This document shows, piece by piece, positions 43,007 through 56,329 of a DNA stretch of 64,000 nucleotides. This stretch comes from Chitinophagaceae bacterium (GTDB lineage: Bacteria; Bacteroidota; Bacteroidia; Chitinophagales; Chitinophagaceae), in contig CANGWB010000002.1 of assembly GCA_947457465.1 (NCBI GenBank), positions 1 to 64,000 on the forward strand, in the 5' to 3' direction. The position numbers and the translations under genes were made by a program. The number at the start of each line of letters is the position of its first letter. Position 1 is the first letter of the stretch. A model generated the notes under the pieces. The model was not told the origin of the DNA and searched no databases. It saw only the letters and a program-made list of their open reading frames with translations.

Positions 43007-44218
43007 TCAGAATAGACGAACCAATGCGTAGATACCGCCGGCCAGCAGGGCACTGATCGGAATGGTCAGTATCCAGGCCCAGACCAGATTGAGTGTTACG
43101 CCCCAGCGCACGGCTGATAAACGCTTGGTGGCTCCTACACCCATGATGGAACCGGTGATGGTATGCGTGGTGGAGACGGGGATTTTCATCGCCTCCGTAA
43201 TGAAGAGTGTGAGTGCACCCGCTGTTTCTGCAGCAACCCCTTCAAAGGGAGTTACTTTGGTGATTCGGGTACCCATGGTTTTTACGATCTTCCATCCGCC
43301 GCTCATGGTACCCAGGCCGATCGCCAAGTAACAGGCAACGGGCACCCAATTAGGCATTTGATCGAATTCAGTTATACTACCACCGGCGATGAGTGCTGCG
43401 GTGATGATCCCCATTACTTTTTGAGCATCGTTTCCGCCGTGACCAATACTGAAGGCTGCAGAGGAGACCAGCTGTAATTTTTTGAACCATTGATTAGCCC
43501 GGTGGGTGTTCAGCCTGCTGAGATAAAGTGAAAACACGGCCATCACAGTGAGGATGAATGCCAGCAAGATCCACTTGAAATTCTTTGCATAGAACAACAC
43601 CTGAAGTGCGTAAGTTTTATAGTGTATACGCTTGCTGATCACATCTTGATCAGTTTCAAGATTGTTGTACAGGAAGATGGCAACAAAGATCAGGATGCCG
43701 ATCGGTAACAGTTTGGATGTCCAACCTTTCTTGAACGAGTTCAGAAACCAAAGCGACATCATGAACGCCATGATCATACCGATCAGAGGTGCCAACACGA
43801 TAAAACTGGCAGTTTTAAGGATCACAGGGGAATTGACGGCGTTCCAGCCCCCTGCCGCAATGGCTGCACCGGCAAACCCGCCGATCAGCGTATGCGACGA
43901 CGACGAGGGGATACCATACCACCACGTGAGCAGGTTCCAGGCAATGGCCGCGGTGAGTCCGGATAGGATTACCCAAAGCATTTCAGGTTTTGGAATATCG
44001 TTCGGATGAACGGTCTTAGCAACCGTATCTGCTACGCCATGATCTTTAAAAATGAAAAAGGCGACGGAGTTGAAGATCGCGGCCCACAAAACAGCTTGAA
44101 AAGGTGTGAGCACCTTCGTTGACACAACGGTGGCGATAGAATTGGCCGCATCATGAAAGCCGTTGATGTAATCGAATATAAGGGCCAGCGCAATGATGGC
44201 GATCAGCAGCGTGGTCAT
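43007..44218 (-). CDS. Inorganic phosphate transporter (PiT family)
   Basis: FDYINGFHDAANSIATVVSTKVLTPFQAVLWAA; SSSHTLIGGFAGAAIA; SIGHGGNDAQKVMGII; VSTTHTITGSIMGVGA. Confidence 0.96.
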   Translation of the reverse strand: MTTLLIAIIALALIFDYINGFHDAANSIATVVSTKVLTPFQAVLWAAIFNSVAFFIFKDHGVADTVAKTVHPNDIPKPEMLWVILSGLTAAIAWNLLTWWYGIPSSSSHTLIGGFAGAAIAAGGWNAVNSPVILKTASFIVLAPLIGMIMAFMMSLWFLNSFKKGWTSKLLPIGILIFVAIFLYNNLETDQDVISKRIHYKTYALQVLFYAKNFKWILLAFILTVMAVFSLYLSRLNTHRANQWFKKLQLVSSAAFSIGHGGNDAQKVMGIITAALIAGGSITEFDQMPNWVPVACYLAIGLGTMSGGWKIVKTMGTRITKVTPFEGVAAETAGALTLFITEAMKIPVSTTHTITGSIMGVGATKRLSAVRWGVTLNLVWAWILTIPISALLAGGIYALVRLF

Positions 44219-44223
44219 GTTCC

Positions 44224-44874
44224 TCAGGCGTATTTAATGATGATGGACTCGATCACATTGGCAACATCCTCACATTTATCTGTGGCGATCTCCATTACCT
44301 GATAGATCTCTCTTTTTTTGATTACTTCCTTTGCATCCTCCTCTGTTTCGAACAAGCGCTCAATGCTCATGTCAAAAACATCATCGGCCTGGTTTTCAAT
44401 GCTGTTGATGCGAACCAATGCCTCCGTGATGGAACGCATGTTTTTCATATCGCGTAACTCGATCACCGCCTTGTGGACCTGTTGGCATCCCTGCTCGATG
44501 AGCTCCGAAAACTTATGAATACCTGTTTCATTCGGGTTAACCCGATAGAAATTCATTTTTTTGGCAGATGCGTAAATATAGTCCGCGATATCATCAAGTG
44601 ATGTGGCGAGGTAATGGATATCCTCTCGGTCGAACGGCGTGATAAAATTCCGCCCCAGTTCGGTGAACAGCTGATGGGTCAGGTCGTCGTTTGCATGCTC
44701 CATGTTTTCAATCTGAAGTAAGATGGCAGCTCGCTTATCATAATCCGGTTCTGCAACGAACGTTCTCAATTGCCCCCCCATGGTGAGCACGTTGCTTGCG
44801 ACTTGCTCGAAGAGCTCGTAAAAAATGACGTTTTTGGGAAGAAAGATCTTGAGGATCGATTGTAGGGCAGACAT
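44224..44874 (-). CDS. DUF47 family (PhoU-like) protein
   Basis: 216 aa; DREDIHYLATSLDDIADYIYASAKKMNFY; adjacent to PiT. Confidence 0.93.
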   Translation of the reverse strand: MSALQSILKIFLPKNVIFYELFEQVASNVLTMGGQLRTFVAEPDYDKRAAILLQIENMEHANDDLTHQLFTELGRNFITPFDREDIHYLATSLDDIADYIYASAKKMNFYRVNPNETGIHKFSELIEQGCQQVHKAVIELRDMKNMRSITEALVRINSIENQADDVFDMSIERLFETEEDAKEVIKKREIYQVMEIATDKCEDVANVIESIIIKYA

Positions 44875-44933: not shown

Positions 44934-44941
44934 CAAACTTA
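44934..44941 (-). promoter_or_regulatory. -7 element TAAGTTTG upstream of the DUF47-PiT operon
   Basis: TAnnTTTG match on the minus strand about 60 nt upstream of the ATG at 44874. Confidence 0.45.
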
Positions 44942-45156
44942 ATGATTTGGTAACACGGCTCCGGTGCATTGCTTGCTGACCCACTTTCAATATGTAAACA
45001 CCTGTAAATCATTAAATTATTATCAACACTTCCGCCGTGAGTCTAGCTGATTACAGTTGACTAAGTGGGATTTAAAGAGCCTTTGGATAGCCATTCTCTC
45101 AGGTCCTTGATCGCCGATCATTCCCCGGCGGAATGAGTATCCAATTCCAGCCGTGA

Positions 45157-45222
45157 TAACATTGCGGTAACATTTACTTCACGACTACTTAATATTGGCA
45201 TAACACAGCCGTTACACACCAA
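45157..45222 (+). promoter_or_regulatory. Candidate Pho-box array: six 11-bp-phased TAACA-type repeats
   Basis: TAACATTGCGG TAACATTTACT TCACGACTACT TAATATTGGCA TAACACAGCCG TTACACACCAA. Confidence 0.7.
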
Positions 45223-45248
45223 GCCCACTTTTGTCAAAAGTTGCGAAC

Positions 45249-48035
45249 ATGAAGTGCGGACGGCTACTCGCCATATTGGTTTTATTGTTCTCGACCACTT
45301 TGAGTTTTGGTCAAAATCTCAAACTGGCGGGAAAGATCACCAACTCCAAAAACGAACCCCTCAGTGGCGTATCGATCAAAATTTTGGGATCCAATACCGG
45401 TACTATTACTGACGTTGAGGGTCGTTTTACCCTCAGCCTTTCAATCGGACAAAAATATACCCTGACCCTTTCAGCGGTCGGCTATGAAAACAAAACCATC
45501 GGCGAGGTGGAGGTAAAGGCCGGGCAATACAACGAGCTGAATGTGGTGATGGAAGTAAAAGAGAAAGTGGGCGAAGGAGTGACGATCACCACCAAAGGTT
45601 CCACCGCCCGAAAAGAATCCGTTAATGCCCTGATCACTTTTCAGCGCAACACGAACACCGTTGCTTCGGTTATTGCTGCCGAGACGGTTCGCCGTTCGCC
45701 CGACCGCAACACCGGTGAGGTACTGAAACGTACACCCGGCGCCAGTGTTCAGGAAGGAAAATTCATCATTATCCGCGGACTGGCGGATCGATACAATCAG
45801 GCCATGCTGAACGGTATCCTGCTCACCAGTACCGAACCCGATCGCAAAACCTTCTCCTTCGATCTGATCCCCGCCAACATGATCGATAACCTGATCATCA
45901 ACAAAGCCTTCGTTCCTGAGTATCCGGGTGAGTGGGCAGGCGGACTGATCCAGGTGAACACCAAAGACATTCCTTCCACCAACTCATTCAATGTGCAGGT
46001 AGGAACCGGCTTCAACTCACAGACCATCGGCAATACTTTTTATCGCGATCCAGGTGGTCGATTCGATTGGTTGGGTATCGATGATGGTACACGTAGCCTG
46101 CCTGCCGGTTATACCCGCAAAGCAGAATTTGATACTTCTTCACAAATGACCAAAACTGCTATCGGCAAAACCATGCGTAATGCCTGGGCACCGATCGCCG
46201 GATCAGCTCCTATGAACGTATCCTTCCAAAGCAGCGGAAGTTTTTCTTCGAATGTTTTCGGTAAGCGCATCGGGGGTATCATCGGTGTCAACTATAACAA
46301 AACCAATCGTCGGGTTCTATTGCTCAACCGATCCAACTCGATCTCTAATAATGTTGCTTCGATCAACTCCAACTTTAACGATACCCGCTATCAGCAGGAA
46401 GTTTCAGTGGGTGCCATCGGAAGTCTCGCGTTGCAATTGAACAGCCAAAACCGCATCTCTGTAAAGTCACTCATCAATGTCAACTCCAACAATGCCGTAA
46501 CTCAACGTGAAGGAGATGAATTCAATCGCGATGAGCAGATCCAAGGCTCTGACCTCACCTTCAAGCAAAATACATTCTTCACGACTCAGCTCACGGGTGA
46601 TCACACCATTACCAATCCGCTTAAGTTCCGTTGGTATGGTTCATTTACCATCCTCGATGGATATATTCCTGATCAACGTCGGATCGCCTACTCTCGTCTG
46701 GCCGGAACCTCCGATCCCTACCGACTCCTGATCTCCAACGTACTTTCTCAGCAAAGCGGCAGCCGCATCTTCCAGACCCTGAGTGATTATATCTACACGG
46801 CCGGTGGCGACCTCAGTTACAATTTTGACTGGTTGGGACAAAAACAAACCCTGAAAGGCGGATACATGCTTCAGATCAAGGATCGGTTGTATGATGCCAA
46901 CCTGTTTGCTAATTACCTGACCATCGATAATCCCGGACTCCGTCTATTGCCTGCCGATCGAGTATTCGATCCGATCCACTTCGGAAACGGAACCGATAAT
47001 CTATTTGGATTCGATGCGATTAAAGGACGTACGTTCCGCTACATGGCCAACACCATTCTAAATGGCGGGTTTCTCCAACTCGATAATCAATTCACCAAGA
47101 AGTTGCGGGTGGTATGGGGACTGCGCGTAGAACATTACGACCAATTGGTCGGCAGTGTGAAAACCTGGGACCCACGTCACACTTACTCTAAAGTATTGGA
47201 CTTCCTGCCAGGTTTGAATGCCACGTATAAAGCAAACACCAAGACCAACATCCGTCTCTCTGCCTCACAAACCGTGATCCGTCCCGAGTTACGTGAACTA
47301 GCCTTCCTGAATCTCTATGATTTTGAATTGAATGCCTCTGTTCAAGGGAATCCAAACTTGCTTCGTACGAAGATCGGAAACCTTGATCTGCGGTACGAAC
47401 TCTATCCCCGTGCAGGTGAGGTGTTGACAGTAGGTGCTTTCTTCAAGCGGTTTGATAATCCCATCGAGCAATTGTTCAATGAAGGAGTGGGCGGATCCAG
47501 TACGTTTAGTTATCAAAATGCCAAACGGGCTACCGTTTTCGGAGTTGAGGCTGAATTCAGAAAGAAACTTGACGCTGTTGATGTCTTGAAAAACTTCACC
47601 CTGCAGGCTAACGGTTCCTTGATCAAGAGTCAGGTGAAGGATCTTTCATTGGGTATCGATCGTACGCTGCAGGGCCAATCACCGTATATGATCAACCTGG
47701 GATTGTTATACGATCTCGAGAAAGCTGGATTGACCGCAACGCTTCTTTATAATCGGATCGGTGAGCGGATCTACTTGGTGGGCGATATCAGTGCCGGTTC
47801 CGGATCGCCGGACATCCTGGAAGCGCCTCGTCATCTGGTGGATTTTCAAATGAGCAAAAAAGTATTGAAGAAAAAAGGCGAGTTCCGTTTCAATATCTCT
47901 GATGTATTCAATACTGTTCAATACTTCTACCAGAACGTTGGCACTAAGTACAGTTTCCAAAAAACCACTGATGCCTATCGATTCACGCGTCAAACCGGTA
48001 CCACGTTCAGCTTAACCTTCAACTACACACTCTAA
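45249..48035 (+). CDS. TonB-dependent receptor with carboxypeptidase-regulatory-like N-domain
   Basis: Signal peptide; LAGKITNSKNEPLSGVSIKILGSNTGTITDVEGRFTLSL; plug (RTPGASVQEGKFIIIRGLADRYNQAMLNGILL), C-terminal aromatic TFSLTFNYTL; ATG at 45249 preferred to the TTG at 45231. Confidence 0.93.
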   Translation: MKCGRLLAILVLLFSTTLSFGQNLKLAGKITNSKNEPLSGVSIKILGSNTGTITDVEGRFTLSLSIGQKYTLTLSAVGYENKTIGEVEVKAGQYNELNVVMEVKEKVGEGVTITTKGSTARKESVNALITFQRNTNTVASVIAAETVRRSPDRNTGEVLKRTPGASVQEGKFIIIRGLADRYNQAMLNGILLTSTEPDRKTFSFDLIPANMIDNLIINKAFVPEYPGEWAGGLIQVNTKDIPSTNSFNVQVGTGFNSQTIGNTFYRDPGGRFDWLGIDDGTRSLPAGYTRKAEFDTSSQMTKTAIGKTMRNAWAPIAGSAPMNVSFQSSGSFSSNVFGKRIGGIIGVNYNKTNRRVLLLNRSNSISNNVASINSNFNDTRYQQEVSVGAIGSLALQLNSQNRISVKSLINVNSNNAVTQREGDEFNRDEQIQGSDLTFKQNTFFTTQLTGDHTITNPLKFRWYGSFTILDGYIPDQRRIAYSRLAGTSDPYRLLISNVLSQQSGSRIFQTLSDYIYTAGGDLSYNFDWLGQKQTLKGGYMLQIKDRLYDANLFANYLTIDNPGLRLLPADRVFDPIHFGNGTDNLFGFDAIKGRTFRYMANTILNGGFLQLDNQFTKKLRVVWGLRVEHYDQLVGSVKTWDPRHTYSKVLDFLPGLNATYKANTKTNIRLSASQTVIRPELRELAFLNLYDFELNASVQGNPNLLRTKIGNLDLRYELYPRAGEVLTVGAFFKRFDNPIEQLFNEGVGGSSTFSYQNAKRATVFGVEAEFRKKLDAVDVLKNFTLQANGSLIKSQVKDLSLGIDRTLQGQSPYMINLGLLYDLEKAGLTATLLYNRIGERIYLVGDISAGSGSPDILEAPRHLVDFQMSKKVLKKKGEFRFNISDVFNTVQYFYQNVGTKYSFQKTTDAYRFTRQTGTTFSLTFNYTL

Positions 48036-48064: not shown

Positions 48065-49501
48065 ATGAAAAAAACCCTTATTCTGTTATCAGCACTGGCT
48101 ACCCTGGCTTGGACCGGTTGCCGTAAGATCGAGTCGGATGGAGAGATCCAGGTAGTTGTCGTCAGCGGAGGCGGTGGCGGTACAGCTCAAGGAGAGACCA
48201 TCACGCTTCAAGGACGCATCAGCAAGGATACCCTTCTGAAAAAACAAAACACCTACATCCTGAAAGGCTTGGTGTATATGGTGAACAATGCCACCATGAC
48301 CATCGAACCTGGTACTGTTATCAAAGGATCATTCAGTGGCGCAGACGTAGCTGCGTTGGTGATCACACGCGGCGCCAAGATCCAGGCAAATGGTACTGCT
48401 ACTGATCCCATCGTATTTACATCTGCTTCTCCCAATCCTCAATCGGGTGACTGGGGTGGTATCGTCATCTGTGGAAAAGCACCGGTTAATACTAGCTTCA
48501 ACGGTGCTGCGAACACATTCCAAGTGGAAGGTGGTATCGATAATGGCAATGGAGATGGTCTCGCTGGCGGTACAGACGCAGCAGACAATTCCGGTTCTCT
48601 CAAATTTGTGCGCATTGAGTATGCCGGATATGCCTTTCAGCCCGATAAGGAGATTAACAGTTTGACCATGGCTGCCGTAGGAAGCGGAACGACCATTGAA
48701 AACATCCAGGTTTCTTATGCTAAGGATGATGCATATGAGTGGTTCGGCGGTACGGTCAATTGCAAATTCCTGATCGCGTATAAAACCCTGGATGATGATT
48801 TCGATACCGATAATGGGTATAACGGTAAAGTACAATTCGGTCTTGTGATCCGCGATTCACTCTTGGCCGATATCTCTCGCTCCGAAGCCTTCGAAAGTGA
48901 TAACAACTCGGGCGGTACTACTGCTACTCCTAAAACCGCACCGATCTTCAGTAATATCACTGCGATCGGTCCGCGTGCCACACTCACCAATGTAGGAAAT
49001 ACCTTGTTCCGCGGTGGTGCACACATCCGTCGTAATACAGCCATGTCCCTTTTCAATTCGATCATCATGGGATGGCCCATCGGCCTTGAGCTGGATGCCA
49101 CTACAGGTTCATCGGTTGCCCTCAACATGGAAGACAGCTCACTGCGCTTACGCAACGTCACCCTGGCCGGTAACACCGTTGCCATCCGTTTTGCTGGAAC
49201 AGCCGGTGCGACCATCACGAATGATGCCGCCTTTGCCACTTGGTTCAATACTCCATTCTATAATAATGATATCTTGGTGAATGTAGGTGACGCTCGTTTG
49301 ATCCAGCCCTTCAACTACGCTGCCCCAGACCCTACTCCATTTGCCGGTTCGAACGGAAATGCCAGGATCAATACTGGTGGCGGATTTACGGATCCCAAGT
49401 TCAACGGTGATACGTTCTTCGACAAGACCATCACGTTCCGCGGCGGTATCGCTCCGGCCGGTCCGTTGACCAGCTGGTGGAAAGGTTGGACTAAATTCTG
49501 A
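48065..49501 (+). CDS. Secreted lipoprotein, predicted right-handed beta-helix-like
   Basis: Lipobox LATLAWTGCRK; TIEPGTVIKGSFSG..ALVITRGAKIQANGTATDPIVFTSA; pair with upstream TBDT. Confidence 0.7.
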   Translation: MKKTLILLSALATLAWTGCRKIESDGEIQVVVVSGGGGGTAQGETITLQGRISKDTLLKKQNTYILKGLVYMVNNATMTIEPGTVIKGSFSGADVAALVITRGAKIQANGTATDPIVFTSASPNPQSGDWGGIVICGKAPVNTSFNGAANTFQVEGGIDNGNGDGLAGGTDAADNSGSLKFVRIEYAGYAFQPDKEINSLTMAAVGSGTTIENIQVSYAKDDAYEWFGGTVNCKFLIAYKTLDDDFDTDNGYNGKVQFGLVIRDSLLADISRSEAFESDNNSGGTTATPKTAPIFSNITAIGPRATLTNVGNTLFRGGAHIRRNTAMSLFNSIIMGWPIGLELDATTGSSVALNMEDSSLRLRNVTLAGNTVAIRFAGTAGATITNDAAFATWFNTPFYNNDILVNVGDARLIQPFNYAAPDPTPFAGSNGNARINTGGGFTDPKFNGDTFFDKTITFRGGIAPAGPLTSWWKGWTKF

Positions 49502-49574: not shown

Positions 49575-51638
49575 ATGAAAGCTAAATTCCTCGCACGAGA
49601 TATCAGTTGGTTAAGTTTCAATGCCCGCGTATTGCAAGAAGCGAATGATCCAAGCATTTCGCTGCAGGATCGTATCCGTTTCATGGGTATCTTCTCCAAC
49701 AACATGGATGAATTCTTTCGCGTTCGAGTGGCTACGTTGAAGCGCATGGTGGAGTGGACCCAGTTGAAAAAAAAGGCTTCATTTGACCGCATCGAGTCGC
49801 CGCAGCAGATATTGGATGAGATTCAGCAGGTTGTTCTTCGTCAGCAAAATGAATTCAATCGGATTTGGGAAAATGTATACCGCGAACTACGTAAGCAGGG
49901 CGTATTTCTGGTTGATGAGAAAAAAATCAATGCTGAACAACGTCGTTTTGTCCGTACATATTTTGAGGATGTGGTCCGTCCGTACATCATTCCGCTCATG
50001 ATCGAAAACATTCCGCAATTTCCTTACCTGCGGGATAAAAGTCTGTATCTCGGCGTGGTGCTTTCCAATAAAAAAGACTCGTACCAGGAGCGATTCTCTG
50101 TCATTGAGATCCCAGCTCGTTCGGTCGGACGTTTCGTGCAATTGCCCTCCAAGCCTGGAACACATTCTATCATGTTGCTGGAAGACTTGATCCGTTCGAA
50201 TCTGCCGGTTTTGTTCACCCACACCAAATATGACCAGTTCGAGGCGAGTGTATTCAAGATCACCAAGGATGCCGAGATCGACATGGATCAGGAGGTAGGT
50301 TTGAATCTGGTAGAAAAATTACAGAAGGGGTTAAAAAGCAGACGTAAAGGAAAACCGGTTCGTTTTATTTACGAGCGGACAATGAATCCTCGTTTGTTAC
50401 AATACCTGATCGACAAACTACAACTCAGTCGAAAGAGCAATATCATCCCGGGCGGACACATCCATCATTTCCGGCATTTCATGGATTTCCCCAAAGTACT
50501 GGCCAACCCGACCCCCCGTCCGTCTCCCTTTCGCCATCCGGCATTAAAAAAGTCACAACTGGTTTCCGAGGTGATTCAGCAGCGCGACGTGATGCTTCAT
50601 TTTCCCTACCACAGTTTCGATCCGGTGATCGATCTGCTTCGGGAAGCGGCCATGGATGACGATGTTTTATCGATTCAGATCACGGCGTATCGACTTGCCT
50701 CTAATTCCAAGGTCATCAATGCGTTGATCAACGCCTCTCGAAATGGGAAGAAAGTGGTTGTTTGTCTGGAACTGAAAGCCCGTTTCGATGAAGAAGCCAA
50801 TCTCGAATGGAAATCCACATTGGAAGAAGAAGGCGTACAAGTATTGGTCGGTATTCCGAATAAAAAGGTGCATGCCAAGCTTTGTTGTATCCGAAAGAGA
50901 AAAGGTAAAAAGGTTATCGCCTATGGTTTTATCTCCACCGGAAACCTGAATGAAAAAACAGCGACGGTTTATGCCGACCATTGTTTGCTGACCGCCTCGC
51001 CTGTTTTGATGGCAGAAGTTGAAAAAGTATTTACCTATCTCGCAGAATGGAGAAACGGGATTGCGCCATTACGTAGTCTGAAGCATTTACTGGCAGCGCC
51101 GACCAATATGCGCCGGAGAATACTCGATCATATTCAGGCGGAGATCCGGCTGGCAAGGAAAGGAAAGCCCGCTGAAATCATCGTGAAACTGAATTCATTG
51201 AGTGATGGGGTGCTGCTGGAAGCGCTGTATAAAGCTGCGCGAGCAGGTGTGCAGGTACACCTGATCATACGGGGGATATTCTGTCAGCAAATCAACGGGG
51301 ATGATATAGACGCACAAGTTCATGCGATCAGCATTGTTGATCAATATTTGGAGCATGCCCGGGTTATGATCTTTTCAAGAGGAGGCGATCCGCTGGTATA
51401 TATCAGCAGTGCAGATTGGATGGTGCGCAACCTGGATCATCGCGTGGAGGTGGCTACACCTGTTTATGATGATCGGATCAAACAGGAACTGATCGACCTC
51501 ATTCGCATTCAGTTGGTCGATAATCAAAAGGCGCGTATTTTGGAGCCCGGTTTAACCAATCGATATGTTTCAGCCGGACGTAAAAAGATACGATCACAGG
51601 AGCAGACCTATGTATTCCTTCGTTCCAAACTTCGCTAA
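49575..51638 (+). CDS. ppk1: Polyphosphate kinase 1
   Basis: FLARDISWLSFNARVLQEANDPSISLQDRIRFMGIFSNNMDEFFRVRV; HFPYHSFDPVIDLLREAAMDDDVLSIQITAYR; YGFISTGNLNEKTATVYADHCLLTA. Confidence 0.97.
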   Translation: MKAKFLARDISWLSFNARVLQEANDPSISLQDRIRFMGIFSNNMDEFFRVRVATLKRMVEWTQLKKKASFDRIESPQQILDEIQQVVLRQQNEFNRIWENVYRELRKQGVFLVDEKKINAEQRRFVRTYFEDVVRPYIIPLMIENIPQFPYLRDKSLYLGVVLSNKKDSYQERFSVIEIPARSVGRFVQLPSKPGTHSIMLLEDLIRSNLPVLFTHTKYDQFEASVFKITKDAEIDMDQEVGLNLVEKLQKGLKSRRKGKPVRFIYERTMNPRLLQYLIDKLQLSRKSNIIPGGHIHHFRHFMDFPKVLANPTPRPSPFRHPALKKSQLVSEVIQQRDVMLHFPYHSFDPVIDLLREAAMDDDVLSIQITAYRLASNSKVINALINASRNGKKVVVCLELKARFDEEANLEWKSTLEEEGVQVLVGIPNKKVHAKLCCIRKRKGKKVIAYGFISTGNLNEKTATVYADHCLLTASPVLMAEVEKVFTYLAEWRNGIAPLRSLKHLLAAPTNMRRRILDHIQAEIRLARKGKPAEIIVKLNSLSDGVLLEALYKAARAGVQVHLIIRGIFCQQINGDDIDAQVHAISIVDQYLEHARVMIFSRGGDPLVYISSADWMVRNLDHRVEVATPVYDDRIKQELIDLIRIQLVDNQKARILEPGLTNRYVSAGRKKIRSQEQTYVFLRSKLR

Positions 51639-52529
51639 ATGATCCTGGCGGCCATTGATATCGGCAGCAATGCTGCTCGTTTACTGATTTCAGAGGTAAC
51701 ATCTATCGGAAAAGAATCTCGCGTCGATCGATTGAATTTTCTTCGTATTCCGCTTCGTTTGGGATTTGACGTATTTGAAAAGGGATACATTGGTGCTCGT
51801 CGTAAGAAAATGCTTATTGACACCATCGATGTGTTCGCTCGTCTGATCAGTATGCACGAAGTGGATCATTATATAGCCTGTGCCACCAGTGCGATGCGCG
51901 ATGCCTCCAACTCGAAGGAGATCATTCGGGAAATACGTCAGCAGACCGGTATCGGCATCGATATCATTTCCGGCGACTTGGAAGCAGAAATAATTTATGA
52001 GAATCATATTGCGGAGCTGCTTGATCCTGGCCATAGCTATCTCTATATCGACGTAGGGGGTGGTAGTACTGAGCTCACCTTCTATCATCAGTCTGAAGTC
52101 GTTTTTCAGCGTTCGTTCAATGTAGGAACGATCCGAATGCTCACCAAGCAGATGGATGATGCGGTTTGGCAAGAGATGAAACAATTTCTTCGAGACTTTG
52201 CCAAGAGCTACAATCAGGTCACGGCCATCGGTTCAGGTGGGAACATCAACAAATTGGCTTCGCTGGTTAATGGTAAATCCGGTAAATCCATTTCAGCTGA
52301 AACCGTACGGGAGATGCACCGAGAGTTGAGTGATCTGACCGTCGAGGAGCGTATGCTTCGATACAAATTGAAACGCGATCGTGCAGACGTCATCGTTCCG
52401 GCCTTGCTGATCTATACCCATCTGATGAAATGGGGCGGTATCGAGGAGATCTATGTACCCAAGATCGGTTTGGCTGATGGGCTGATCCACCATCTTCGTG
52501 AACAGTTGTTGGAAACAGCTAAGCGATGA
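51639..52529 (+). CDS. Ppx/GppA phosphatase family protein (exopolyphosphatase-like)
   Basis: AAIDIGSNAARLLISEV; DVGGGSTELTFY; GSGGNINKLASL; directly follows ppk1. Confidence 0.94.
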   Translation: MILAAIDIGSNAARLLISEVTSIGKESRVDRLNFLRIPLRLGFDVFEKGYIGARRKKMLIDTIDVFARLISMHEVDHYIACATSAMRDASNSKEIIREIRQQTGIGIDIISGDLEAEIIYENHIAELLDPGHSYLYIDVGGGSTELTFYHQSEVVFQRSFNVGTIRMLTKQMDDAVWQEMKQFLRDFAKSYNQVTAIGSGGNINKLASLVNGKSGKSISAETVREMHRELSDLTVEERMLRYKLKRDRADVIVPALLIYTHLMKWGGIEEIYVPKIGLADGLIHHLREQLLETAKR

Positions 52530-53568
52530 CACCCACGCCTGTATTGGCGAAGGGATCTTCACCCCTAGTCCTTTGCTGAATTTTGTTACCCTCCGTCATC
52601 ACTTTTCGTATCACAGGCGTAATGCAATCCGAATAATCGCGTTGCACATATTCACCTTGCTGTAACCAATTCAATAACGCGGGTCTTTCTTTTTCACTTA
52701 GTCTGTTCAGGCAACGTACACCCAGCCCTTTCAAGGCAGCCGCGTTGCAGACCTGTTCGTATTGACCTTGTATCGGTACGGCCAGGATCTTCTTTCCTAA
52801 GTGTATGGCTTCGGCAGGCGTCTCAAAACCCGCTCCGCAAATGATGCCATCTGCATGGATCAGGCTTTCATCGAATCGCTTCCGGTCGATCGGAAGAAAA
52901 GTGACGTTGCCGTTCTGTCTGAATGTATTCGTGCTTTTGGAAAAAACTTCGAACCGAGTGCCGGGTAGCGTTCGGAACAGTTGCTCGAGAAAGCTCTCCT
53001 CGTAGGCGGGCAGGTACACGGTGATGTGACCGGATCGGGTAGGCACAGCCTGTATGACCTCTGGCTTGATCACCGGCATGAAAATGTTGGGATGGTAGGA
53101 ATCGAAATGCAGACCGATGTGTTTAGAGGCTTGTACAAAGTGTCGCAATAAAGCCTCCCCATGCCAGGATCGGTTGCGTGGACGGGGGGTCTGCGAATAT
53201 TGGAAACTTGCCTGATGTCCGAAATGAATAGAGGGGGCGCCTTGTAGCTTACAAGCCAATGAAGTGATGAAGTCAAAGTCATTTATGATCAGGTCGTACT
53301 TTTTTACGGGTAACTGTTTGGCATCTCGAATCACCTGTGCGGGATGGGTTTTTCGGATCAGTTGCCAGTAATTCAATCCCCCTTTGTTATTGTAAAATAA
53401 ACTGAGGCCCTTACTTCTGTAAGCGACCGGTCCATCAAAAGGTAAATGACTATTCGATCCGCTGAGGAACACATCCACCTTCCCGTATAATTCCAAGTAA
53501 GGCAGTAGTGTTTGTGCCCGACTTACATGTCCGTTACCGGTCGCCTGTACGGCATATAGGATCTTCAT
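52519..53568 (-). CDS. MurG/GT28-like glycosyltransferase
   Basis: MKILYAVQATGNGHVSRAQTLLPYL; CGAGFETPAEAIHLGKKILAVPIQGQYEQVCNAAAL nucleotide-sugar region; 4-bp overlap with the upstream metallophosphoesterase. Confidence 0.85.
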   Translation of the reverse strand: MKILYAVQATGNGHVSRAQTLLPYLELYGKVDVFLSGSNSHLPFDGPVAYRSKGLSLFYNNKGGLNYWQLIRKTHPAQVIRDAKQLPVKKYDLIINDFDFITSLACKLQGAPSIHFGHQASFQYSQTPRPRNRSWHGEALLRHFVQASKHIGLHFDSYHPNIFMPVIKPEVIQAVPTRSGHITVYLPAYEESFLEQLFRTLPGTRFEVFSKSTNTFRQNGNVTFLPIDRKRFDESLIHADGIICGAGFETPAEAIHLGKKILAVPIQGQYEQVCNAAALKGLGVRCLNRLSEKERPALLNWLQQGEYVQRDYSDCITPVIRKVMTEGNKIQQRTRGEDPFANTGVGVIA

Positions 53569-54416
53569 GATGGTATGGGTAATGAGTGAATGTGCATGGA
53601 AACTTCTTCGGTGACGACTTCCACCTCTTTCAATCGGACCGGAAGGGAAACGACGGGCGCGGAGGCAAAATCCTGTTCTTGGTAATGGTACAGACTCCAG
53701 CTACCGTTGGAGTATTCCAACGAGGTGAGGTTCTCGATCCAGTCGCCGCTGTTCATGTAAATGACACTTCCTTTTTCGGTCTCGATCACGCGTTTCTGGG
53801 GCTGGTGGATATGTCCACAGATCACGTATTTATATCCTTTCTCGATCGCTAGTTCAGCTGCCGTTTGTTCAAAATTGTCGATCCAGGCAACCGCTTTCTT
53901 GACGCCGTTCTTCACCTTTTTACTCAAGCTCATTTTAGGTCGGTTGCATTTGACAAGCACCCAGTTGATCAGCCGGTTCAGTAAAATCAACCAGTCATAT
54001 CCGATACCTCCCCATTTGGCGATGAACTTGGCGCTGCCTTTGGTCGTCGCATCGAATACATCGCCGTGAAAGATCCAAGTCATCTGTCCATCGATCTCTA
54101 ATACCAATTTATCCGTCAGCTGAAAGTGACTCAATTGCCAGCCACTGTACCGTCTTAACATTTCATCGTGGTTGCCGGTAATGTATACCACACGTGTTCC
54201 TAACTCAGTCAGGTTCAGAATCTCTTTGATCACCTGCAGATGCGAAGCCGGGAAATAACGTTTACTGAATTGCCAGCCATCGATGATATCCCCGTTCAGG
54301 ATAAGCCATTTGGGACGGATGTGACGCAGGTATTGTACGATCTCTTTTGCATGGCAACCGTAGGTGCCTAAATGCAGATCGGAGAGGACTACTATATCGG
54401 CCTCGCGGTAATTCAT
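53565..54416 (-). CDS. UDP-2,3-diacylglucosamine diphosphatase-like / PlcP-like metallophosphoesterase
   Basis: VVLSDLHLGTYGCHAKEIVQYLRHIRPKWLILNGDIIDGW; ITGNHDE; HGDVFD; ICGHIHQPQ. Confidence 0.9.
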   Translation of the reverse strand: MNYREADIVVLSDLHLGTYGCHAKEIVQYLRHIRPKWLILNGDIIDGWQFSKRYFPASHLQVIKEILNLTELGTRVVYITGNHDEMLRRYSGWQLSHFQLTDKLVLEIDGQMTWIFHGDVFDATTKGSAKFIAKWGGIGYDWLILLNRLINWVLVKCNRPKMSLSKKVKNGVKKAVAWIDNFEQTAAELAIEKGYKYVICGHIHQPQKRVIETEKGSVIYMNSGDWIENLTSLEYSNGSWSLYHYQEQDFASAPVVSLPVRLKEVEVVTEEVSMHIHSLPIPS

Positions 54417-54441: not shown

Positions 54442-54485
54442 ACCGAACGTTAAGTGAACGCTACCGAAATCTTATTTTCCTGTTA
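54442..54485 (-). promoter_or_regulatory. Candidate Pho-box array: four 11-bp-phased TAnC-type repeats
   Basis: On the minus strand TAACAGGAAAA TAAGATTTCGG TAGCGTTCACT TAACGTTCGGT, 25 nt before the metallophosphoesterase ATG. Confidence 0.55.
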
Positions 54486-54495
54486 TCAGTACGTA

Positions 54496-55545
54496 TTAAT
54501 CGGGTTTGGCCTCCAGCGTAAATCCAAATGTCGTACCCACTTGTTCCGTACTACGAACATGTATGCTTTGGCCGTGTGCTTCCAATATGTGTTTGCAGAT
54601 GGCCAGCCCGAGTCCACTTCCGGTCAGGTCCATACTGCGCCCCACTTCGGTCCGATAAAACCGCTCAAACACCCTTGGTAATTCTGCTTCCGGTATACCA
54701 ACGCCATCGTCTGTGATCTCGATCAGTATACGCTTACCATCCGTCCGATACACACTGGCCACTACTTCCCCTTCTTGTTTACCATACTTGATGGCATTGG
54801 ATACAAGATTGTTCAGGACTTGTCGGACCTTCTCCCGGTCGGCAAATACGATCACCGGCGCTTCTGATTCTTTTTTCAGTCGGCACCCGATCTGTTTAGC
54901 ATCAGCCTTCGTTTGTTTGCTTTCAAAAACCTCCTGGATCATTTCCTGTATCACAAAGGCCTCCTTGGTTAACACGATCTCTCCTCTCTCCAACTTGGCG
55001 ATCTGATCGAGGTCGTTCAGTAAATGCGTCAAGCGCTCTACATTCTTCGAGGTCCGTTGTAAAAAGCGCTTGGCGGTTTCAGGATCTTGCATGGCTCCAT
55101 CCAGTAGCGTATCTACATAGCCCTGTATGGCAAATACCGGCGTTTTGAATTCGTGTGACAGGTTCTGAAGAAACTCACGGCGGAATTGTTCGTTGTGACG
55201 AAGGAGTTCCAGTTCGCTCTCGTTGTCGGCGGCCCACTGCTCCACATCCAATCCTACCTCCTGTATTGTTTTTTTGGGGATCAGGTACTTATAATAAGTT
55301 TCTTCCCGTTTCGTGGCCTTGGTCTTGTAAATGAACTTATAGATCAGTTTGATCTGGCGGTATACAAACCGATTCAACATGAAAGAGATCAACAAGTAGC
55401 TAAGCAGAAAAACAGATAGGAAACAAATGACAGCCAGTCCGATCTTTTTCTCCGCCAACCAAAGGATCAGGGTTTCCGGTATGGCCAATAGGAAAGCAGT
55501 AAGCAGTGCGATCTGGCGGGGCGTACTGTTCCGTAATGAAAACAT
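54496..55545 (-). CDS. Sensor histidine kinase, PhoR-like
   Basis: Two TM; FLQNLSHEFKTPVFAIQGYVDTLLDGA; NLVSNAIKYG; DDGVGIPEAELPRVFERFYR; GLGLAICKHILEAHG. Confidence 0.93.
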   Translation of the reverse strand: MFSLRNSTPRQIALLTAFLLAIPETLILWLAEKKIGLAVICFLSVFLLSYLLISFMLNRFVYRQIKLIYKFIYKTKATKREETYYKYLIPKKTIQEVGLDVEQWAADNESELELLRHNEQFRREFLQNLSHEFKTPVFAIQGYVDTLLDGAMQDPETAKRFLQRTSKNVERLTHLLNDLDQIAKLERGEIVLTKEAFVIQEMIQEVFESKQTKADAKQIGCRLKKESEAPVIVFADREKVRQVLNNLVSNAIKYGKQEGEVVASVYRTDGKRILIEITDDGVGIPEAELPRVFERFYRTEVGRSMDLTGSGLGLAICKHILEAHGQSIHVRSTEQVGTTFGFTLEAKPD

Positions 55546-55569: not shown

Positions 55570-56253
55570 CTAGTCCCACTCAAACTTATATCCCACACCT
55601 TTCACGGTGGTGATGCAATCGACTCCCATTTTCTGTCGGATCTTGCGAATGTGTACATCGATGGTGCGGTCGCCCACGATCACTTCATTGCCCCAGACCT
55701 GGTTCATGATCTCCTGACGGAGAAAAACACGACCCGGTTTCTGCGCGAGCAAATACAAAAGCTCAAATTCTTTTTTAGCCAGACTGATCTCCTGACTGTC
55801 TATCTCCACGACAAATCGGTCGGGATCGATAGAGAGGTTATTGAAGCGAAGTGCTCGTTCATCGGTTGAAGCCGGCAAACGGCGAAACAGCGCCTGTATG
55901 CGGGTGAGAAAAACTTTTGGGCTGAGCGGTTTGGTCAGGTAATCATCGGCCCCGGTCTCCAATCCCTTGATCTGCGCCAGATCATCACTTATGGCCGTCA
56001 GAAAAATGATCAATGTTTTTTGAAAGGCCGTTTGTGCCCGCAGCCATTGACAGACCTCCACGCCCGTTTTACGCGGCATCATCACATCCAAAACAATCAG
56101 TTCAGGTTGATGCTTGCGTGCTTTCTCCAGTGCTTCATCTCCGTCCTTGGCCGTGATCACTTCATACCCCTCCTGCGTCAGATTATAACGGAGGATCTCC
56201 AGGATATCCGGATCATCGTCGGCGATCAATACTTTTCGGAGCGAAGCGGGCAT
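55570..56253 (-). CDS. OmpR-family response regulator, PhoB-like
   Basis: VLIADDDPDILEILRYNLTQEGYEVITAKDGDEAL; LDVMMPRKTG; winged helix GDRTIDVHIRKIRQKMGVDCITTVKGVGYKFE. Confidence 0.93.
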   Translation of the reverse strand: MPASLRKVLIADDDPDILEILRYNLTQEGYEVITAKDGDEALEKARKHQPELIVLDVMMPRKTGVEVCQWLRAQTAFQKTLIIFLTAISDDLAQIKGLETGADDYLTKPLSPKVFLTRIQALFRRLPASTDERALRFNNLSIDPDRFVVEIDSQEISLAKKEFELLYLLAQKPGRVFLRQEIMNQVWGNEVIVGDRTIDVHIRKIRQKMGVDCITTVKGVGYKFEWD

Positions 56254-56329
56254 GCCAATGTTTTCACAAACCTACTTCGATTCTGGCGCACCTGCCGCCA
56301 GTTAATGATTAATTAATATCGATGCTAAT

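Follow-up and report, generated by a model that had tools for sequence, protein, structure and literature searches.

A six-unit, 11-bp-phased repeat array upstream of a TonB-dependent receptor gene as a candidate Pho box of the Bacteroidota

The Pho box of Escherichia coli is composed of tandem 11-nt direct repeats, each with seven better and four less conserved positions, which lie near the promoter core; its word is CTGTCAT and its basic form has two units. The PhoP boxes of Bacillus subtilis are of the TTAACA type, similar in core word and period to the array described here, from which they differ in phylum, promoter type and spacing. The 11-nt repeat has been described as a feature of the B. 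subtilis Pho sites, and the Pho-box consensus varies between species (PMC4415409). Within the Bacteroidota, what is known of the phosphate response so far amounts to gene lists from Flavobacterium johnsoniae, for which 95 Pi-induced transcripts have been published, and a single EMSA, in which PhoB of Bacteroides fragilis bound the pstC promoter in vitro (PMC3547664). The PHO regulon of F. johnsoniae includes the same cluster of phoR, phoB, TonB receptor and lipoprotein genes as the locus studied here, and Pi depletion raises Fjoh_0545 (receptor) by 8.0 and Fjoh_0546 (lipoprotein) by 9.9 log2; no operator is described in that paper, in which the term 'Pho box' has 0 occurrences (PMC8115612). 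In Riemerella anatipestifer, a member of the same phylum, the PhoP motif obtained by DAP-seq shares the TTTAACA core, and the genes it precedes include one for a TonB receptor; the accessible part of that report treats the motif as ArcA-like and tied to virulence, and describes neither an 11-bp six-unit array nor a -7 register nor a phosphate gene set (PMC9603813). No defined Bacteroidota Pho box was found in the open-licence literature searched. The Pho box is thus known as a kind of site, while a consensus specific to this phylum, a six-unit layout and the promoter geometry set out below appear undescribed.

The DNA analysed is a stretch of 64,000 nucleotides from a member of the Chitinophagaceae, referred to as the window. 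A sequence-only reading had pointed out six 11-bp-phased TAACA units directly upstream of a TonB receptor gene (Table 1) as a candidate Bacteroidota Pho box. These units, which start at 45157, 45168, 45179, 45190, 45201 and 45212, are borne out: the TAACA match summed over six units in 11-bp steps reaches 26/30 at 45157, against maxima of 17-21 in 200 dinucleotide shuffles (2-kb blocks, both strands), and the best score in the real window at periods of 9, 10, 12 and 13 is 19. The letters likewise bear out the columns that had been described, T1 and A3 being present in all six units and C4 and A5 each in five. The tandem direct repeat that characterises a Pho box (an 11-bp period and at least two units) is therefore found here with six units and is specific to its period. 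Of the six, unit 3 (TCACG) is the poorest, which holds for relatives too, and the partial degeneracy of units 3 and 4 is the one point in favour of a periodicity that arose by chance or for purely structural reasons and has no regulator. The shuffle test, the period control and the conservation across orders reported below rule out a chance origin, and leave such an explanation with practically no probability. Between the DUF47 and receptor genes there are also two loose units (TAATGATTTGG TAACACGGCTC; 44939-44956, forward strand), some 200 bp ahead of the main array.

Table 1. Features of the array and its surroundings in the window
Feature	Position	Strand	Basis
Pit/PHO4 phosphate permease	43007..44218	-	domains
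DUF47/PhoU_div protein, divergent from receptor	44224..44874	-	domains
Candidate Bacteroidota Pho box: direct repeats, six units in 11-bp phase	45157..45222	+	unit starts, shuffles, relatives
-7 promoter element CACTTTTG	45226..45233	+	C, A and TTTG invariant in 28 sequences, fixed spacing
TonB-dependent receptor (CarboxypepD_reg + Plug + beta-barrel), putatively served by the array	45249..48035	+	domains, homology
Partner lipoprotein	48065..49501	+	32% to Fjoh_0546-type lipoprotein adjoining the Flavobacterium receptor
Polyphosphate kinase (ppk1)	49575..51638	+	domains
Ppx/GppA phosphatase	51639..52529	+	domains
Glycosyltransferase (Glyco_trans_1_3, weak Glyco_tran_28_C)	52519..53568	-	domains; compare Pi-induced Fjoh_0541
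Metallophosphoesterase	53565..54416	-	LpxH-like NCBIfam matches; relatives' ortholog matches Pfam Metallophos
Weak second array, about four degenerate 11-bp units, upstream of metallophosphoesterase	54442..54485	-	suggestive
Sensor histidine kinase, PhoR/PnpS-like	54496..55545	-	40% to Flavobacterium PhoR
PhoB-like OmpR-family response regulator, proposed array ligand	55570..56253	-	50% to Flavobacterium PhoB

To assess conservation, the receptor protein (928 aa) was searched against 42 genus genomes, making no use of the array. Receptor orthologs are present in most of these genomes, at identities from 90% down to about 38%. Thirty loci were fetched, of which 29, including the window, have readable upstream DNA, a run of N upstream of the receptor having led to the omission of L017; as the arrays of L007 and L008 are identical they entered the count as one, which leaves 28 sequences. 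In all 28 of these distinct loci the array stands in register before the receptor ortholog, so that the lack of conservation that would have told against the sequence-only reading is not seen. Its usual form in the genus is TAACATTCCGG TAACATTGAGG T-ATAATTGCT TAACATG-- TAACATGCCGG TAACCTGCCGG, followed by 6 nt and CTTTGC. Three loci (L013, L022 and L029) have decayed to the last four units but keep the register with the -7 element, and scoring without a bonus for that element returns the same register, save that L013 and L029 shift by whole units. In units 1 and 2, columns 1-7 are well conserved and columns 8-11 less so, which corresponds to the 7+4 structure of Pho boxes; unit 3 is an exception in that its columns 8-11 are also well conserved, and it is poorest at its second and fifth positions in all genus copies, the window included. 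The consensus word is TTAACAT rather than the CTGTCAT of E. coli. Some members of the genus (G018, G019, G020 and G039) contain the regulator and lack both the receptor and a strong array.

The array is followed by what appears to be the core of the receptor promoter. In the window the last unit leads through 6 nt (gcccac) to the TTTTG of CACTTTTG, with the receptor ATG at 45249. Across the 28 genus sequences the C, A and TTTG of CA..TTTG occur without exception and the 6-nt distance from the array to [CT]TTTG is fixed. The same distance is seen in arrays found with the models R1 and R2, which include the -7 element and so have partly selected for it, while the genus set, coming from a protein search, is free of this bias. 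Both the near-consensus -7 element that had been noted as abutting the array and the class-II-like position assigned to the array are upheld by this constancy. The family consensus, CAnYTTTG, departs from the Bacteroidota TAnnTTTG in its first T, so the promoter should be weak in the absence of an activator. If the -7 element is taken to end at about -4, as is general in Bacteroidota, the units would start near -25, -36, -47, -58, -69 and -80, and a -33 element would fall within units 5 and 6. Judged by the position of the predicted promoter, the array would overlap the upstream core element, as Pho boxes do, and this geometry is what one would expect of an activator standing in for the -33 contact. 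The system would differ from that of E. coli in coupling the array to a promoter that has the Bacteroidota -7 element and lacks a -33 element.

This promoter geometry also bears on which genes the array serves. The DUF47-Pit pair starts divergently about 280 bp from the array, and Flavobacterium DUF47 homologs have arrays of their own, so that a phosphate operator acting mainly on the DUF47-Pit operon, or on both sides, might be imagined. This is unlikely: the conserved -7 element and its constant distance single out the receptor, the array persists in many relatives in whose fetched flank no DUF47 gene was found, and G012 and G013 have an additional array between the DUF47 and porin genes that faces away from DUF47.

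The array is rare in its own genome. R1, a model of the array sequence built from 25 sequences including the window array, so that its E-value there is not independent, matches strongly at a single place in the window (E 1.2e-15; runner-up E 0.97). Over the whole genome it gives three matches at E <= 1, namely the receptor array (45156-45238, E 4e-14), a second strong array on the reverse strand of another locus (L061; G000:C1:310690-310755, E 1.2e-4) and one marginal site. The second array precedes the gene for a choice-of-anchor I lipoprotein (499 aa) that resembles, by domain type, the Pi-induced F. johnsoniae lipoprotein Fjoh_3414. In most genus genomes the best R1 match is the receptor array (E down to 3e-22). 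Arrays of this kind are therefore not as frequent at random sites as in front of the receptor, a distinction on which the sequence-only reading depended, and the strong ones found elsewhere precede phosphate genes. An exact pattern of four WAACA units has no match in the own genome, because the degeneracy of the units defeats a literal search. PstC was not found in this genome. The weak second array in the window lies just downstream of the end of the kinase gene, and orthologs of the metallophosphoesterase carry better arrays. A very weak R1 match upstream of the regulator gene (56301-56325, E 2.2) is not taken to indicate autoregulation.

The array models match across the Chitinophagales, Flavobacterium and more distant Bacteroidota. 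Arrays precede PstS (L101, L164 and L167), PstC (L123) and a PhoX-like phosphatase (L073 and L127); they are further borne by OprP-like porins, other TonB receptors, metallophosphoesterase genes and partner-type lipoproteins with arrays of their own (L093, L100, L103 and L104). With OprP-like and DUF47 genes included, the arrays thus stand upstream of phosphate-acquisition genes, as a Pho box should. Among 30 pstC upstream regions taken from across the phylum independently of R1, most are without a strong array, and six score at least 16/20 for four units at a period of 11, compared with 0/30 at control periods of 8, 9, 10, 12, 13 and 14 bp. At the Flavobacteriia receptor loci the array is found at 11 bp in 40/47, with 1, 0, 0, 0, 0 and 0 at other periods, these loci being closely related and several sets sharing phylogeny, so that they are not independent. 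The Flavobacterium arrays are likewise laid out in six units, of which the third (ACACA) is degenerate. In all five Flavobacterium genomes used as stand-ins for F. johnsoniae (Root935, Root901, SLB02, F. pectinovorum and F. reichenbachii), the top three matches of model R2, trained without DUF47 sites, are at OprP, the TonB receptor and DUF47. Fjoh_0542, the OprP gene of F. johnsoniae, showed no induction upon Pi depletion (PMC8115612), although its counterparts in these close relatives carry the array. In distant Bacteroidota (L120 and L121), array-like repeats also precede the gene for a small protein, approximately 131-134 aa long, that is secreted.

The regulator encoded in the window has a receiver domain (PF00072) and Trans_reg_C (PF00486), both above cut-off, which places it in the OmpR/PhoB family. 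Its two best NCBIfam families are PhoB models, both with scores below cut-off (TIGR02154 PhoB, 223.8 against 296.2; NF053854, the Bacteroides model, 216.9 against 270). E. coli PhoB is among the PDB structures nearest to its DNA-binding domain, the recognition helices VGDRTIDVHIRKIRQKM and VEDRTVDVHIRRLRKAL being closely similar. Comparison of the kinase, regulator, receptor and lipoprotein with the Flavobacterium phoR-phoB/receptor-lipoprotein cluster gives identities of 40, 50, 26 and 32%, respectively. It could be argued that the array is used by a different member of the family, such as an ArcA- or RprY-like regulator that also controls envelope genes. The position of the window regulator under the PhoB equivalog cut-offs would allow for this, 11-bp direct repeats are common across the OmpR/PhoB family, the Riemerella PhoP motif, TTTAACA, is called ArcA-like and has many non-phosphate targets (PMC9603813), and a few weak array matches fall before dnaB. 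The latter (L077, L079 and L080), where a AACATTCCACTAACA-like sequence is conserved in several relatives, were not counted as Pho sites. However, strong matches cluster before phosphate genes, the Flavobacterium array sits between the divergent phoB and receptor genes, and the receptor and lipoprotein of the F. johnsoniae cluster are induced by Pi depletion (PMC8115612). Use by such a different regulator thus seems very unlikely.

The array is very probably the operator of an activator-dependent promoter for phosphate starvation, i.e. a Bacteroidota Pho box, that drives the TonB receptor and its partner lipoprotein; the candidate Pho box proposed from the letters of the window gains support from its conservation in register, from the recurrence of such arrays upstream of phosphate genes across relatives, from the likeness of the window cluster to that of Flavobacterium, whose receptor and lipoprotein are Pi-induced in F. 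johnsoniae, from the PhoB-like recognition helix of the regulator and from the binding of B. fragilis PhoB to the pstC promoter. Against it stand the regulator's scores under the PhoB cut-offs, the absence of induction of Fjoh_0542, the genus members with the regulator but neither receptor nor strong array, and the pstC upstream regions, most of those sampled, that have no strong array. When phosphate is scarce, the regulator would be phosphorylated by the PhoR-like kinase, and up to six molecules of it would bind head-to-tail on one face of the DNA, one per 11-bp unit. Those on the downstream-most units would occupy the place of the -33 element and pass RNA polymerase on to CAnYTTTG, the -7 element at its constant distance. 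The sequences show the array, its register with the -7 element, its conservation and its recurrence before phosphate genes; such binding, the replacement of the -33 contact and induction by low phosphate in this organism are what we infer, together with the substrate transported by the receptor.

A conserved sequence of 98-128 nt is found in approximately 11-12 of the 42 genus genomes (models R1 and R3) and, with a Pho-type array directly before it, may represent a Pho-controlled small RNA. This candidate starts with CAGTTCTT and has GCAGTTGCCACC before a terminator hairpin at its end (loci L169, L170, L171, L173, L174, L177, L071 and L286-L297). It has no Rfam match, and the R1 and R3 models do not detect it in the own genome. 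R3 has five matches outside its training set; a clear 11-bp array lies directly upstream in G033, G014 and G031 and a weaker one in G013, while the weakest match, in G030, has none.

There is a reasonable case, short of a strong one, that the Pho operator ancestral to the phylum is the six-unit array in register with a promoter lacking a -33 element, and that this array also drives a small RNA in part of the genus. If this is true, phosphate control in these bacteria includes an RNA branch. In many guts, soils and waters the Bacteroidota are the dominant bacteria, and knowing the consensus, the number of units and the register with the promoter would make their phosphate regulon predictable from sequence across the phylum. 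The array also supplies a model, open to testing, for the action of an OmpR-family activator on the unusual -33/-7 promoter of the Bacteroidota.
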